Virus record (IMG/VR): IMGVR_UViG_3300050821_000463
Span: 1-30,993 of that record
Source: a virus
Length of the DNA stretch: 30,993 bases
Reading direction: 5' to 3' (one strand)
The notes under the pieces were generated by a model. That model was not told the DNA's origin. It was given only the letters and a program-made list of their open reading frames with translations, and did no database searches. Below are positions 940 to 23,823 of this stretch, one piece after another (position 1 is the first letter of the stretch; each line of letters starts with the position of its first letter). A program made the translations under genes and the position numbers.

Positions 940-1104
940 ATGGAAGAACAGCTAAAAGCTCTAAAGCAAATTAGAAGTATTTGTAGTGGCTTTAAGTCGC
1001 CTAAGATGAGTGATAATGCTGAATTAGCTTGGGCCATTTATATGTGTCGTGAAATTTCAGATCAGTTTATTCGTATGGATTATTGGAATAAAAAAGTTGT
1101 TTAA
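940..1104 (+). CDS. Small unknown protein (54 aa)
   Basis: The ATG directly abuts the previous stop (TAAATG), which suggests translational coupling, since no good Shine-Dalgarno is close. The product (MEEQLKALKQIRSICSGFKS then a helix ending WNKKVV) is mostly helical and contains two cysteines. Its stop lies 8 nt inside the best start of the ribonucleotide reductase, the same geometry as the MazG/dcd junction. This argues that the reductase begins at 1097 rather than further upstream within this gene. No function is recognised. Confidence 0.58.
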   Translation: MEEQLKALKQIRSICSGFKSPKMSDNAELAWAIYMCREISDQFIRMDYWNKKVV

Positions 1105-2773
1105 ATCTAGTTTAGGTGCTGCATTTCGTAATCAGTTTGCAGTAGATATTTTTACACAGAAATATAGACATGAAGGCGCTTGGGCTTGGGAAGAATTGGC
1201 TCGAACAGTCGTTGAAGATGTATGTCGGGCTAATTTAACCAAGGACGAGAAAGATCAATTAACAAAATATATTGCTGATATGAAATTTTTGCCAGGAGGG
1301 CGTTACCTTTACTATGCCGGACGTGAAAAGAAGTTTTTCAACAACTGCTACCTTTTACGGTCTGAAGAAGATACTCGTGAGGATTGGGCCAATCTCTCTT
1401 GGAAAGCTGAAAGCTGTCTTGCCACTGGTGGAGGAATTGGTAACGACTATTCAATCTATAGAGCCAGTGGATCAATTTTACATGGTACTGGTGGCATCGC
1501 GTCAGGACCAGTCTCCAAGGCTTACATGGTCAACGAGATTGGAAGACAGATTATGCAGGGAGGTTCAAGACGTTCTGCGATCTATGCGTCTCTTAATTGC
1601 GGACACGCAGACATCCCAGTATTTATGGGAGCTAAAAATTGGGACCGACTTAAAATTGCCGGCACTGAAAAGACCTTTGCAGACGTAAGAAAAGAGGATT
1701 TTAATTTTCCTTGTCCTCTTGATATGACTAACATTAGTATTAATTATGATACAAAATGGCTACTTAATTATTGGCAAACAGGATATGTAGGCAAAGTATT
1801 TCTAGAGAATGTTAAGCAAGCCTTATCTACAGGTGAGCCCGGGTTCTCTTTTAATTTCTTTGATAAAGAAAATGAAACACTACGAAACGCTTGCACAGAA
1901 GTTAGCTCTGCTGACGATAGTGATGTTTGTAATCTCGGTAGTGTTAATTTCTCACGGATTTCTTCCCTCACAGAGCTTATGGATGTTGTGGCTCTGGCGA
2001 CTAAATTTCTTGTGTGTGGGACTTTGGTAGCTAAGTTACCTTATGAAAAAGTATATAAAGTAAGAGAAAAGAACAGACGACTTGGCTTAGGGTTAATGGG
2101 TCTTCACGAATGGTTGGTGCAAAGAGGGTATCGTTATGAATGTACAGACGAGCTTAAGAGATGGCTCACTATATATCGAGATATTAGTGCCGATACAGGA
2201 ACTAAATTCTCGGCTTCCTTGGGCATATCATCCCCTGTTGCATTCAGAGCTATTGCACCCACCGGCTCAATCGGGATTTTGGCCGGCACTACAACGGGGA
2301 TTGAGCCTATCTTTGCTGTGGCCTATAAGAGACGTTATCTTAAAGGTACTGCATGGAGGTTTCAATACGTCATCGACGGAGCAGCTAGAACCTTAATGGA
2401 CCTATATGGAGTAGATCATGCAAAACTGGAAAGCGCATTGGATTTATCTAATGACTATCAGCGAAGAATTGCATTTCAGGCTGATGTACAAGACTTCGTC
2501 GATATGGCTATATCCTCCACTATCAATTTACCCAAGTGGGATGCAGAAAAAAATGGCGATGAGTATATTGAAAGATTTGCTAATTGTCTTGCTTCTAACG
2601 CCCATCGTCTTCGTGGCTTTACCTGTTATCCTGATGGTTCTCGTGGTGGCCAACCTCTTGTTTCAGTTCCTTATACTGAGGCCCGTGATAAGCTTGGTGA
2701 AGTATTTGAGGAGCATGTGGAAGCAATTGATGTATGTTCAATAACGGGTCGTGGCGGTGCTTGTGGCTCGTAA
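1097..2773 (+). CDS. nrdJ: Class II (adenosylcobalamin-type) ribonucleotide reductase
   Basis: The 558-aa protein should reduce ribonucleotides to deoxyribonucleotides for phage replication. Numbering from the TTG at 1097, the core motifs are: first redox Cys84 (FNNCYLL), the thiyl-radical motif Asn264-x-Cys266-x-Glu268 (NACTE), the partner Cys278 (VCNLGSVN), and APTGSIGILAGTTTGIEPIF around 387-406. The last is the phosphate-binding loop typical of class II enzymes rather than class I. Two C-terminal cysteines (547 and 556) could be the thiol-shuttle pair. There is no ATP-cone at the N-terminus and no nrdB-like gene beside it, both consistent with B12 dependence. It is shorter than many cellular NrdJ proteins. 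A longer GTG-started version from 1049 is possible but would overlap the 54-aa gene and lacks a Shine-Dalgarno; family similarity starts near FAVDIFTQKYR. Confidence 0.9.
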   Translation: MFKSSLGAAFRNQFAVDIFTQKYRHEGAWAWEELARTVVEDVCRANLTKDEKDQLTKYIADMKFLPGGRYLYYAGREKKFFNNCYLLRSEEDTREDWANLSWKAESCLATGGGIGNDYSIYRASGSILHGTGGIASGPVSKAYMVNEIGRQIMQGGSRRSAIYASLNCGHADIPVFMGAKNWDRLKIAGTEKTFADVRKEDFNFPCPLDMTNISINYDTKWLLNYWQTGYVGKVFLENVKQALSTGEPGFSFNFFDKENETLRNACTEVSSADDSDVCNLGSVNFSRISSLTELMDVVALATKFLVCGTLVAKLPYEKVYKVREKNRRLGLGLMGLHEWLVQRGYRYECTDELKRWLTIYRDISADTGTKFSASLGISSPVAFRAIAPTGSIGILAGTTTGIEPIFAVAYKRRYLKGTAWRFQYVIDGAARTLMDLYGVDHAKLESALDLSNDYQRRIAFQADVQDFVDMAISSTINLPKWDAEKNGDEYIERFANCLASNAHRLRGFTCYPDGSRGGQPLVSVPYTEARDKLGEVFEEHVEAIDVCSITGRGGACGS

Positions 2774-19662: not shown

Positions 19663-19815
19663 CAAGTGGCCTGTTAATTTTACCTTTTCTATAAGTTGTT
19701 TAGCTTTTTCCTCTGATATTTTCATTTTCTGCATCAGAGAAGAAACCGTTTCTGTTCTTAGTGTTTGTGGATACCCTCGTGCATCACGAGTCATCCCTTC
19801 ATCTTTCCAATTCAT
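19660..19815 (-). CDS. Small unknown protein between GG-repeat protein and scaffold (51 aa)
   Basis: The ATG overlaps the upstream stop (TAATG), with AGGTGG just before it. The product starts MNWKDEGMTRDARGYPQTLR and continues as a helix (SSLMQKMKISEEKAKQLIEK) ending KLTGHL. Hydrophilic and mostly helical, it is not recognised. The stop lies inside the 19638-19662 stem-loop. Position suggests a head-assembly accessory. Confidence 0.66.
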   Translation of the reverse strand: MNWKDEGMTRDARGYPQTLRTETVSSLMQKMKISEEKAKQLIEKVKLTGHL

Positions 19816-21257
19816 TAGCCACCTAAACTAAATGGGCTAGGACTTGGAGGAGGAGCTTTTGGAGGAGTTGCAGTTTGTGCAATCCTTTGTTGACTTGCAT
19901 TAGGTTGTGCAGCAGCCTGTGGTGGTAATTGTTGTGGCATTTGCTGCTGTTGTCCTTGTGGAGGAGCTGCTAAACCAGGGCGCTGACCAGCTTGCTGTTG
20001 TTGCTGTGCATTCTGTTTTTCAAGATGCTTAGCTATAGCTTCATGCGCCTTATCTTGCATCTGAATAAGTTTACCCATCCCCCAAAACTGTACTGTAGCA
20101 GCATCCATAACAAATTCACCTTTAGATAGTTTGGCGTCTACATTATCTGCTGTGCCATCTTTGGGAACAACTTGATTAGCAATCTGTTGATTTTGCATTG
20201 ATTGCTGTTGATCTGGAGAAGGCTGGCCTTGTTGTGGTTGCTGCTGTTGATCGGGTGCAATGTCTCCGCCATCGGCATAACCAGCATCATTAGCATTAAA
20301 ATTAGCAGCACCACCATTAGCATACCTATGAACCATACCACCGCTAGCCATAAATCCTGCTTCATCAGCACTCATGCCAACATCAGCAATACCACTACTA
20401 TCGCCACCACCTATGCCACTAAATGTACTGGGGTCCATACTTTGTAATTGTGTAGATTGACCAGGATTATTTATAGAATTGCCAATAATTTTATTAATAA
20501 GGCTACCATACACGGAACTTCCAAGAGCACTATTAACTGGACTAGTAGGGGAGGAAACTTGGCCAGGAGACTGCATACCAGAGCCGCCTACAACTGTACC
20601 ATTACCGGCTACAGACATTTGCCCACCGCTAGGAGATTGTGGGGGCGGGCTGCTACCGCCAGAACTTCCCCCCATCATGCCGCCCATCATTGGCATCATA
20701 CTACTTAATCCGCCCATCATGCCACCACTGGCAAACCCACGAGTGCTGGAACTTAATGGCGACGTAGGACTGCCTCCATAGGCAAAATTCTCGCTTGTAA
20801 CAGTCTTTGCAACTGTATCAGGCTCATTAACCATTCCACCTTTGGCATATTCGGGAATACCCTTATGGTAGTACCCAGTCTTGCCTGAGCCCATAATGCC
20901 TCCAGATGCATAAGCTTCTGAAGTATGCGGTAGCGTATCAAATTGCGGATTGAGCATTGCGCCACCATCAGAATAAGGTAGCCTAGGATCAACCGCCGCC
21001 CCGCCGCTTACTAATCCTTGCATAGGATTAGGACCGGCCAATCCCCCCGATAACAAGTGTTGTGGTGGTTTAGGTAAAGATCGCATAATATTACCGTCTT
21101 GTTTGGCAATAGGAACGCCTTGTGGGCTATGAAAAACTCCACCAGAAGTAAAATGACCACTTTTATATGATTGGTCTGGAACTGGTGCATGTGTAGGTAC
21201 TGGTTGTTGAACCAATCCACCAACTTTATAGTTCATATCCACAATAGGTTCTGCCAT
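19815..21257 (-). CDS. Repetitive GG-motif virion protein with LSxGEFVM domain (480 aa)
   Basis: The first 330 residues contain at least ten copies of a short motif of the form [YF/L]-x-x-GG-[hydrophobic]: FTSGGVF, LLSGGLA, LVSGGAA, YSDGGAM, YASGGIM, YAKGGMV, FASGGMM, MASGGMV, YANGGAA, YADGGDI, often followed by a Pro or Gly. A Met/Gly/Ser-rich tract lies near 175-200. After a Q/P-rich linker, residues about 375-410 (DNVDAKLSKGEFVMDAATVQ then FWGMGKLIQMQDKAHEAIA) form a compact domain I recall from proteins of other podoviruses located near portal genes. The end is again Q/P-rich. The role is probably structural (head or connector), but no mechanism is known to me. Confidence 0.68.
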   Translation of the reverse strand: MAEPIVDMNYKVGGLVQQPVPTHAPVPDQSYKSGHFTSGGVFHSPQGVPIAKQDGNIMRSLPKPPQHLLSGGLAGPNPMQGLVSGGAAVDPRLPYSDGGAMLNPQFDTLPHTSEAYASGGIMGSGKTGYYHKGIPEYAKGGMVNEPDTVAKTVTSENFAYGGSPTSPLSSSTRGFASGGMMGGLSSMMPMMGGMMGGSSGGSSPPPQSPSGGQMSVAGNGTVVGGSGMQSPGQVSSPTSPVNSALGSSVYGSLINKIIGNSINNPGQSTQLQSMDPSTFSGIGGGDSSGIADVGMSADEAGFMASGGMVHRYANGGAANFNANDAGYADGGDIAPDQQQQPQQGQPSPDQQQSMQNQQIANQVVPKDGTADNVDAKLSKGEFVMDAATVQFWGMGKLIQMQDKAHEAIAKHLEKQNAQQQQQAGQRPGLAAPPQGQQQQMPQQLPPQAAAQPNASQQRIAQTATPPKAPPPSPSPFSLGG

Positions 21258-21476
21258 TTATTCTTCCTTAAGGCTGTCTTGTGCCGTCTTGCGTAGCTTG
21301 ATTAGCATTCGCAGTAAAGCCGCTTTGCCCTGGCTGCGGAACATTTCCTGTTCCGATGTTGCCCCCTCCATTGCCTGATGTACCTGGGTTAGAAGGTTGT
21401 TGAGGAGGGCCTCCATTCTCTCCCACCCCTGGTGTTCCAGTAGCGGTCGCAGCCGAAGGATTGCTTCCTTGTCCAT
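21258..21476 (-). CDS. 72-aa helical protein overprinted on the portal 3' end
   Basis: This frame shares 209 nt with the last 69 codons of the portal gene in another phase. AGGA at 21484-21487 is 7 nt before its ATG. The product (MDKEAILRLRPLLEHQGWER then MEALLNNLLTQVHQAMEGAT, QEMFRSQGKAALLRMLIKLR) is a well-formed amphipathic helical protein. Its pattern, hp-GW-E...L...L......E....RGK..AL..L..., I recall from small proteins adjacent to portal genes in other phages. Its stop abuts the next ATG (TAAATG). The portal's overlapped tail is low-complexity G/P/N/Q/T, which fits it yielding to the constraint of this gene. Likely a small head-assembly factor; the function is unknown. Confidence 0.78.
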   Translation of the reverse strand: MDKEAILRLRPLLEHQGWERMEALLNNLLTQVHQAMEGATSEQEMFRSQGKAALLRMLIKLRKTAQDSLKEE

Positions 21477-23430
21477 TCATTTGTCCTATCATACGAGCAT
21501 AAATTGCAGCTTCTTCTGGATCATTAATTAATTTCTTTGGGTCGATATCCAAGCTATCAGCAATTTCTTTAAGCAGCCCAATAGCTTTAATATACGGAGC
21601 AAAGGCAGGGTTGGCGGTTAGTTGCATAAAGGTCATAAGACGTTGTGATCTGACTTCTTTTTGCATTAAAGCAGAAGTACCACGAGCCTTGATCTCTAAG
21701 TCGCCACGAATTTCAGGAACATCATCATTAAATTGCATGTTCCAATGAAAGAAATATTCACCCAATGGTCCTAGAAGGTAATCATCAATATTCTTTACTA
21801 CCGTTTTGATGTTAAGAGCAGCAGCGCCCATAAGCATCGACATACCGCTCGCTGTGCGAGTAGTGCTCTGCACACCTGTAGCTCCGTGACTGTAGGAGGG
21901 GATGCCTGTTGCTTCATCTGACAACTGCCTAAATTTATCAAACATCATTAAGTTATCTTGTGCTGTACTTGGAAACTTAACACCAAATATAGCTTGTCCA
22001 GGTTGTCCACTTTGACGACGGAAAATTTTACCTGGATAAATCTTCATATCTTGGCCAGGAACTAGAGACTGTTCGTCAATATCAAAAACAAGGTGACCAG
22101 CTAATGCTAGGTTATCAATTGCCATACGTGCATGACCGTTCATTACAGTTTGGCAATCGTCCATATTCTCTGGTAAGCCAACTCCCCAAAACTGATAAGG
22201 ATTTAACTCATAAGGGCAAGCTTGATAAGGAATGTGCGCGGGAGTAAATGGATTAATTACCATACGAAGAATTTGATTTCCACAAATCCAAATATTTACT
22301 TGAACTTCATCTAAGTCATCATCACTTAGCCCATCAATTCCGCATACAGAAGCTGTATTTTTGTCTAGCACGCCCCAATATTCAAATACTTCATATCGTT
22401 CTTTATTGCCAGTTTGAGAAATATCATCTCTAAGATGATCTTCAAACCATTGTTTAATATAATTAGGACCTAATGCAATCGCTGATCTTACTGCTTCATC
22501 TCTAAAATAAGGCTTATTAAGTAGCCCTCTCATATGAGATCGACCTAGAGCATGTCTTTGAATAACCCATTCACATTGATCAAGCGTTACAGCATCTGGA
22601 TCAGGGTAAAAATACCAGCAGCTAACTGCTTCAATGGTAGGAACCATACGTTCCATAGGGCTATAATCTAGACCACCATCTTTATTTGGTATCCATCTGT
22701 GAGATATTTTCTTAAATGAGAATGGGCCTTTAACAATACAATGACCAAGCAAAACCATCTCAAATACTGCATGTCGTAATACCGTACCGGCATCACTCTC
22801 TTCTAGCTGTTCTTGAATGACCTTTTCCATCTCCTTAGCAGAGATTTCAGCCGGCGATATTTGGGGCATATGAGCAAGATCAGGAGCAGGACCGTCTGTA
22901 AAACCAGCCTTACCATATTCTTGTTGTAGACCTCCTAACAGAGTGCTATACGTTGCGCCAGGAGGTATATCACGACCGTCACCATTCCAACCATAAACAT
23001 TCTGTGGTTGTTGCTGATCTTGGTCTTCATCACCGTCTTGATCTTGCCCCTGGCTTTGTGGTGGCTGATTTGGATCAATATGAGCATATTCAGAAACGCC
23101 AACGGGCTTCTCGCTTGGAATAATACCAATAGGAAATTTATCACCTGCAAAAAGAACTTCTAATAGTTGCCCATAAGAAGCGAGAACTTTTGTCTTAGTA
23201 ATTTTTACGAATACTCTTGATTTCTCACTCTCACGGAACATAACATCAGGACCATAAAGCCCGCGAAAGTTACGATATGCTCGCAACCATCTGCGCTCAT
23301 GGCCAAGCCGTTCCCTAACGGCCCTATTCCATCTCTCTTTTACAAGCGCAATTAAGCCCATATAAGGGCCAGCTACAGACTCCTGGCCCTCCTTATCGTC
23401 TTTTAATGCCTGTACTTCGTCTAGTGCCAT
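21268..23430 (-). CDS. Portal protein (720 aa)
   Basis: A large podovirus-type portal that forms the dodecameric DNA channel at the unique head vertex. Recognisable features are an N-terminal helical region (LIALVKERWNRAVRERLGHE), RNFRGLYGPD, an acidic Q/D-rich loop (about 127-145), the wing region with WYFYPDPDAVTLDQCEW (residues 273-289), EVFEYWGVLD, the segment YQFWGVGLPENMDDCQ and a stem/crown helix with TRTASGMSMLMGAAA. The last 69 residues are G/N/P/Q/T-rich and coincide with the overprinted 72-aa gene. No strong Shine-Dalgarno precedes the ATG, 3 nt after the upstream stop, so coupling is likely. Upstream are the terminase and a 129-aa gene. Confidence 0.9.
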   Translation of the reverse strand: MALDEVQALKDDKEGQESVAGPYMGLIALVKERWNRAVRERLGHERRWLRAYRNFRGLYGPDVMFRESEKSRVFVKITKTKVLASYGQLLEVLFAGDKFPIGIIPSEKPVGVSEYAHIDPNQPPQSQGQDQDGDEDQDQQQPQNVYGWNGDGRDIPPGATYSTLLGGLQQEYGKAGFTDGPAPDLAHMPQISPAEISAKEMEKVIQEQLEESDAGTVLRHAVFEMVLLGHCIVKGPFSFKKISHRWIPNKDGGLDYSPMERMVPTIEAVSCWYFYPDPDAVTLDQCEWVIQRHALGRSHMRGLLNKPYFRDEAVRSAIALGPNYIKQWFEDHLRDDISQTGNKERYEVFEYWGVLDKNTASVCGIDGLSDDDLDEVQVNIWICGNQILRMVINPFTPAHIPYQACPYELNPYQFWGVGLPENMDDCQTVMNGHARMAIDNLALAGHLVFDIDEQSLVPGQDMKIYPGKIFRRQSGQPGQAIFGVKFPSTAQDNLMMFDKFRQLSDEATGIPSYSHGATGVQSTTRTASGMSMLMGAAALNIKTVVKNIDDYLLGPLGEYFFHWNMQFNDDVPEIRGDLEIKARGTSALMQKEVRSQRLMTFMQLTANPAFAPYIKAIGLLKEIADSLDIDPKKLINDPEEAAIYARMIGQMNGQGSNPSAATATGTPGVGENGGPPQQPSNPGTSGNGGGNIGTGNVPQPGQSGFTANANQATQDGTRQP

Positions 23431-23433
23431 GAA

Positions 23434-23823
23434 TTAGAATACGCCAGCTTCACCACTTCCAGGCTTTTTCTTGTCGTCTTTTTCAGGGCCAAGTCCTCCC
23501 CAAACCTTATTAAGCTTCTCGAAGCCAGCAAGGATGCCATTCTCGAATTTATCTTTAGCTTCCTTCTTAGGTTCAAAAGCAGGATCGACAATAGTTTTGT
23601 TATCGTTGTCAACTTTACTAAGGTCCATTTCATCATTATATTGTTCTGCTTCCTGCTTAGGATCAGGACCATTTGCAGAAGGCTTCTTCTTATCATCCTT
23701 CTCAGCACCTAGCCCGCCCCAAACCTTATTTAGTCCAGAGAAGTTAAGCTTTTTAACATTGCCGGGACCTTCACAGGCAACATCTAATTTCTTACCAGTA
23801 TATTTATTTCTTGGTTCAGTCAT
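23434..23823 (-). CDS. Protein with duplicated LNKVWGGLG-EKDDKKKP motif (129 aa)
   Basis: Located between large terminase and portal. It is charged, Lys/Asp-rich and probably disordered, but contains two copies of an 18-residue motif, LNKVWGGLGxEKDDKKKP, at 31-48 and 104-121 with 17 of 18 residues identical. The DNA of the two copies differs at about ten mostly third-codon positions, so the peptide is held by selection. An acidic spacer separates the copies. This looks like a bivalent short linear motif, perhaps binding portal, terminase or scaffold; that is inference. No family is recognised. Confidence 0.68.
   Translation of the reverse strand: MTEPRNKYTGKKLDVACEGPGNVKKLNFSGLNKVWGGLGAEKDDKKKPSANGPDPKQEAEQYNDEMDLSKVDNDNKTIVDPAFEPKKEAKDKFENGILAGFEKLNKVWGGLGPEKDDKKKPGSGEAGVF

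Follow-up and report, generated by a model that had tools for sequence, protein, structure and literature searches.

The portal end and the gene nested in it

The window, i. e. the whole stretch of 30,993 nucleotides that was analysed, carries on its minus strand a portal protein gene (21268..23430, 720 aa). Its product matches Pfam SU10_portal at E 1.1e-21 and, at E 1.3e-70, phrog_332, a family that bears the name head-tail adaptor. This portal is one of the HMO-2011-type group; its tblastn identity reaches 57% with HTVC033P and 50% with HMO-2011. On the same strand a 72-codon open reading frame starts with an ATG at 21476 and ends with a TAA at 21258-21260. It lies in the +1 frame relative to the portal. 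The last 209 nt of the portal gene (21268-21476) are common to both genes, and all but 10 nt of the small gene are within the portal gene. An in-frame stop stands immediately 5' of the small-gene ATG, and an AGGA at 21484..21487 on the minus strand, the likely ribosome binding site, precedes this ATG at a spacing of 7 nt (AGGA-CAAATGA-ATG). The original prediction had named this reading frame, the shared 209 nt and the AGGA with its spacing, and all of them were exact.

The TAA of the small gene adjoins the ATG (21257) of the next operon gene (19815..21257, minus strand), which encodes a Gly/Gln-rich protein of 480 aa. In nested relatives the median distance between these two codons is 0 nt. 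The adjoining stop and start, together with the spacing to the portal stop, suggest coupled translation of the small gene. An SD core of at least 3 nt is found near the small-gene start in 102 of 102 nested representatives; its conservation may in part come from conserved portal Gly codons.

The 480-aa product contains LSKGEFVM...G, and LSEGEFVM is found near the start of the corresponding HMO-2011 gene; its only match to a tape measure was weak (phrog_5448, E 7.9e-4). Between terminase and portal (23434-23823, minus strand) a 129-aa protein is encoded that contains two copies of LNKVWGGLG[AP]EKDDKKKP and had no confident match in PHROG or Pfam (best E 0.17). A gene resembling that of the ribonucleotide reductase large subunit (1049-2773, plus strand; phrog_84, E 1.8e-53) lies on the strand opposite to the structural operon.

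The predicted structure of the small protein is all helical, with four helices and a mean pLDDT of 93. Its 72 residues include no cysteine and no long hydrophobic segment. Comparison with Pfam, PHROGs and PDB sequences gave no usable match: phrog_1461 was hit with the HMO-2011 copy only (E 1.6e-3), and the PDB sequence matches were TPR-like and short. In a fold search with the model no PDB match was better than E 1.7, and the best BFVD matches were unnamed viral proteins of 70-81 aa (TM 0.7-0.85, E 0.02 or worse). As these searches gave neither a named relative nor a significant PDB fold, an assembly role rests on gene position. The gene is constantly placed between the portal and the genes that lead on to the coat, which would suit a small factor of virion assembly that acts together with the portal; for such a role we see about even chances.

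Homologues and their arrangements in related phages

A tblastn search of IMG/VR with the 72-aa protein yielded 234 encoding stretches. Because choosing loci by the answer was to be avoided, loci were also retrieved by portal similarity alone. A scan of viral contigs with a single portal sequence gave no matches; portal alignments did retrieve loci. A homologue was encoded at all 144 portal-retrieved loci with an intact portal end (profile E <=1.2e-14), nested at 142 of them and separate at 2. Overall, both genes were present at 312 loci, of which 223 were nested, 73 partially overlapping and 16 almost without overlap, counts that mirror the queries used and not natural abundance. The partial overlaps measure 71-86 nt, represent the HMO-2011/CRP-345 clade and are all in the +1 frame, as in the nested copies. 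Among the 102 non-redundant nested copies the overlap is 173-218 nt long, and in every one of them the frame is open, starts with ATG and is +1 to the portal.

The window copy matches the family profile at E 2e-25 and carries the conserved [YF]RxQG motif as MFRSQGK; the QG is invariant in the family alignment. In the window the gene sits between the portal and the next gene of the structural operon, and the same order is found in the relatives. Complete nested genomes gave the nested copy as their sole match to the small gene, one per genome. One contig (IMGVR_UViG_3300025653_000041, 58,718 bases), seen as loci L104 and L124, has different copies near its opposite ends (94% and 91% to HMO-2011), so that either the gene is present twice or two phages were joined in assembly.

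In 13 phages (HMO-2011, CRP-9, CRP-13, CRP-207, CRP-212, CRP-235, CRP-603, CRP-738, phiM6, RHph_N3_19, CHOED, MQM1 and Slicky01) a small gene is annotated directly 3' of the portal with at most 35 annotated nt of overlap. Homologues occur as the gene next to the portal in HMO-2011 and in Roseobacter, Rhizobium, Vibrio and Aeromonas phages. The hhalign match between nested and separate small proteins is full-length (Prob 99, E 8.8e-18, 72 columns), and the nested gene of the window is the homologue of the separate gene found after the portal in HMO-2011-type and related phages. The separate genes (HMO-2011 phage1322_50, CRP-9 gp55, CRP-13 gp56, phiM6 SmphiM6_11, CHOED_090, MQM1_05) agree with it in size, operon position and the invariant QG. 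They differ in that they sit after the portal motif described below, with an annotated overlap of 0-35 nt (in the HMO-2011 clade about 71-86 nt if the upstream ATG is taken as the start), whereas the window copy lies upstream of and across this motif, almost wholly inside the portal gene. The pelagiphages HTVC033P, HTVC115P and HTVC103P are like the window, with +1 nesting of 190-200 nt, the same motifs and a single copy. Only sequence divergence distinguishes them from it, HTVC103P having changed both motifs together.

The expectation that gene calling would miss the nested gene was borne out by existing annotations. In HTVC033P and HTVC115P the region of the small-gene match is annotated as "portal" only, and in HTVC103P no small gene is annotated at the portal end. 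Separate and partially overlapping relatives are affected as well: the gene has a late GTG start in HMO-2011, is omitted in CRP-345 and is truncated in ctYwJ313 (loci L003:4473-4688, L088:3473-3685 and L093:3573-3788). The annotation bias against overlaps extends to short overlaps.

Selection on the two frames and the shared motif

When the last 68 portal codons were redrawn synonymously, the +1 frame was open in 49% of the draws. An open +1 frame is often to be expected by chance here because the Gly/Pro/Asn/Gln-rich portal tail yields few +1 stops. The open frame in this genome alone would therefore carry little weight; judged by the sequences of the relatives, its conservation is far beyond chance.

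Silent change was compared in nested pairs chosen for 82-93% portal identity. Among conserved portal codons, 37% (0.371) were silently different in the core and 9% (0.090) in the overlap, an approximately fourfold fall that occurs exactly at the start of the small gene. In the partially overlapping HMO-2011 clade silent change drops from 45% to 8%, and this drop is confined to the roughly 25 overlapped codons. Divergence at portal codon positions 1/2/3 was 0.096/0.042/0.344 in the core of nested portals, 0.229/0.178/0.148 and 0.255/0.149/0.157 in the overlap outside the shared motif, and 0.093/0.070/0.114 in the motif, where all three positions are slow. Outside the motif divergence is minimal at the second position of the small frame and maximal at its third. 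By these values, the small frame is held and the portal frame relaxed over most of the overlap, and both frames are held in the shared motif.

This motif, GGGNIGTGxVPxPGExGF, stands at the end of the portal in all three arrangements, whether separate, partial or nested. In nested phages the same nucleotides encode ATSEQEMFRxQGK of the small protein, the outline of which (a helix start rich in [ST], followed by [YF]RxQG) is also present in the separate small proteins. In the window the doubly conserved stretch lies at 21316..21369 on the minus strand and reads GGGNIGTGNVPQPGQSGF in the portal and ATSEQEMFRSQGKAAL in the +1 frame of the small protein, with codon positions, silent change and column conservation as evidence. 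Silent change in the motif is 0.140 where it is overlapped and 0.283, i. e. twice as much, where it is not. Both halves are altered together in HTVC103P (L087:3461-3691; portal NGEIPQPTDNPPMPGQMEF, small protein HNLQIIHQCQGRW), a joint change that is expected if they are written in the same nucleotides.

The view that the portal tail is passive filler was not supported. Most of the overlapped tail is relaxed in the portal frame, but it includes a motif of about 16 codons that is conserved even when not overlapped and in which all codon positions are slow when nested. The proposed complete and selected out-of-frame gene on the portal C-terminus is supported by the conservation in relatives and by the drop in silent change. 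In the relatives the 72-aa frame stays intact, substitutions do not cluster at portal third positions, and the search for homologues found the same protein at their portal end.

The position of the motif relative to the small gene differs between the arrangements. Measured from a fixed DxDPE-like portal anchor by regular expressions that matched 95 of 127 representatives, the window not among them, the small-gene ATG is 87 codons downstream in separate and 67 in partial phages, in both cases after the motif. In nested phages it is 25 codons downstream, 48 codons before the motif. Between the arrangements, the portal and small coding regions have shifted against each other by about 60 codons.

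History of the gene pair

The original prediction had called the small gene overprinted in the sense of a new gene born on the portal. This part did not hold, since its full-length homologues are separate neighbours of the portal in many related phages. As homologues exist outside the overlap, the gene is not newly born; the comparison indicates that an old gene came to share DNA with the neighbouring portal. We consider it probable that the small gene is genuine and old and part of the head/packaging operon of HMO-2011-type podophages, that its ancestor stood separately after the portal, that it became nested in the pelagiphage-type clade by extension of the portal, and that it is translated by independent internal initiation. 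The ancestor would have been a separate gene directly 3' of the portal. Readthrough of the portal in +1 over the small gene would then have taken place in the pelagiphage-type clade, with an intermediate like the partial state of HMO-2011, and the old intervening portal tail would have been lost. By this loss the C-terminal motif of the portal and the conserved helix of the small protein would have come to lie on the same nucleotides. The small all-helical protein would be made from its own ATG inside the portal gene.

Trees built on the portal core show separate or partial arrangements in the gamma-phage outgroups and in the HMO-2011/Roseobacter/Rhizobium branch. In the best tree a branch with modest support (79) has the nested loci together with loci L271 and L272 on one of its sides, and rooting with the distant phage Y3 or with gamma phages leaves the deep order of nested and separate forms unsettled. 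Given this weak support, the direction of change may be the reverse. The place of L271 and L272 within the nested clade is firm (p-AU 8e-49 against their exclusion). They are sister to the nested L247, with portals 81-86% identical, yet their two genes are separate, and stops interrupt the frames that are open in nested phages. Among loci retrieved with the L272 small gene seven keep the portal end, all of them separate; one locus, L334, is the L272 contig again. The small proteins of L271 and L272 have their best nested match at 47.8 bits and their best gamma-phage match at 43.1 bits. The two loci look like a return to the separate state by duplication or recombination. The simplest history would be a change from separate to nested with this one later return.

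Other readings have to be weighed against this history. If the overlap were ancestral, the HMO-2011/Roseobacter/Rhizobium and L271/L272 branches would have been separated later, e. g. by tandem duplication with each copy keeping one frame. That separation does occur is seen from L271 and L272, which are separate within the nested clade; moreover, separate and nested phages alike carry the two motifs, every partial overlap is in +1 just as in the nested copies, and the trees do not settle the deep branching order. However, the gamma-phage outgroups are separate and the nested loci group with L271/L272 on one side of a branch, so an ancestral overlap needs more changes, and we regard it as rather unlikely. 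Unusual frame-compatibility of the ancestral motifs was considered as proof of a former overlap and is weak (p 0.05-0.1 by shuffling, rank 3 of 102); with compatibility this mild, a former overlap is not needed to explain the motifs.

Far less probable still is a de novo origin, in which the 72-aa frame arose within the portal and is either the source of the relatives' separate genes or without kinship to them. The portal tail is of low complexity and its +1 frame open by chance in about half of the redraws, but separate homologues exist in distant outgroups (Vibrio, Aeromonas and Rhizobium phages), the full-length profile match at E 8.8e-18 contradicts such an origin, and similar folds are predicted among phage proteins. 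We give just as little credence to production of the second frame only as a frameshifted portal-small fusion that lacks independent initiation. Same strand, +1 frame and the end of the small protein close to the portal stop would fit a fusion, and a few nested loci have 9-19 open codons upstream in this frame. It is set aside because of the upstream stops: 97 of 102 nested copies have one at most 5 codons 5' of the ATG, and in the window stop and ATG adjoin; besides, the ATG is present in all 102 and the separate homologues have their own starts. Least probable is that the frame is open by chance, or that it owes its conservation to RNA structure or some other non-coding signal and not to its translation. 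Chance opens it about half the time and reduced silent change need not mean coding, yet divergence outside the motif follows the codon positions of the small frame, lowest at the second and highest at the third, a homologue is encoded in every relative, and homologous stand-alone genes contradict this reading.

Comparison with known overlapping genes

The closest parallel is the Rz/Rz1 spanin pair, which exists in embedded, overlapped and separated forms and in which the embedded gene is commonly missed by gene callers (PMC6139136). The small gene likewise is embedded in, overlapped with or separated from its upstream partner and often missed. Rz and Rz1 are lysis genes, and the o-spanin needs a lipoprotein signal, whereas the pair described here consists of head genes and shows no lipobox cysteine. 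Membership in the spanins, which calls for a lipobox cysteine and a partner in the inner membrane, was considered and rejected, since the 72-aa protein has no cysteine and its partner is the portal; only the arrangements are alike. Also, i-spanins diverge where they are overlapped (PMC6139136), whereas the portal keeps its motif. The spanin survey found no family that joins the embedded to another arrangement, and it named readthrough of the upstream gene over its neighbour with internal deletion as one possibility (PMC6139136). As the portal/small pair does join them, this route becomes testable.

De novo overprinted viral genes (reviewed in PMC8227390) share with the small gene the same-strand +1 overlap, the low-complexity partner and selection on both frames; unlike them, the small gene has homologues outside the overlap. 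The paper on HMO-2011-type genomes does not use the word overlap (PMC9038755), and the literature searched held no report of the portal/small-gene pair, which speaks only weakly for novelty.

The usual explanation of a long out-of-frame overlap is a new gene that was born in an old one. In this abundant marine phage group, two old genes would instead have come to share DNA, with intermediate and reversed states in hand. We lean slightly towards the fuller statement that two unrelated, already conserved genes were merged onto the same nucleotides with both motifs kept, and were pulled apart again in one branch. One gene pair exists in separate, partial and nested forms, with a changeover between portals that are 81-86% identical, and would then be a natural record of neighbouring viral genes becoming, and ceasing to be, overlapping.
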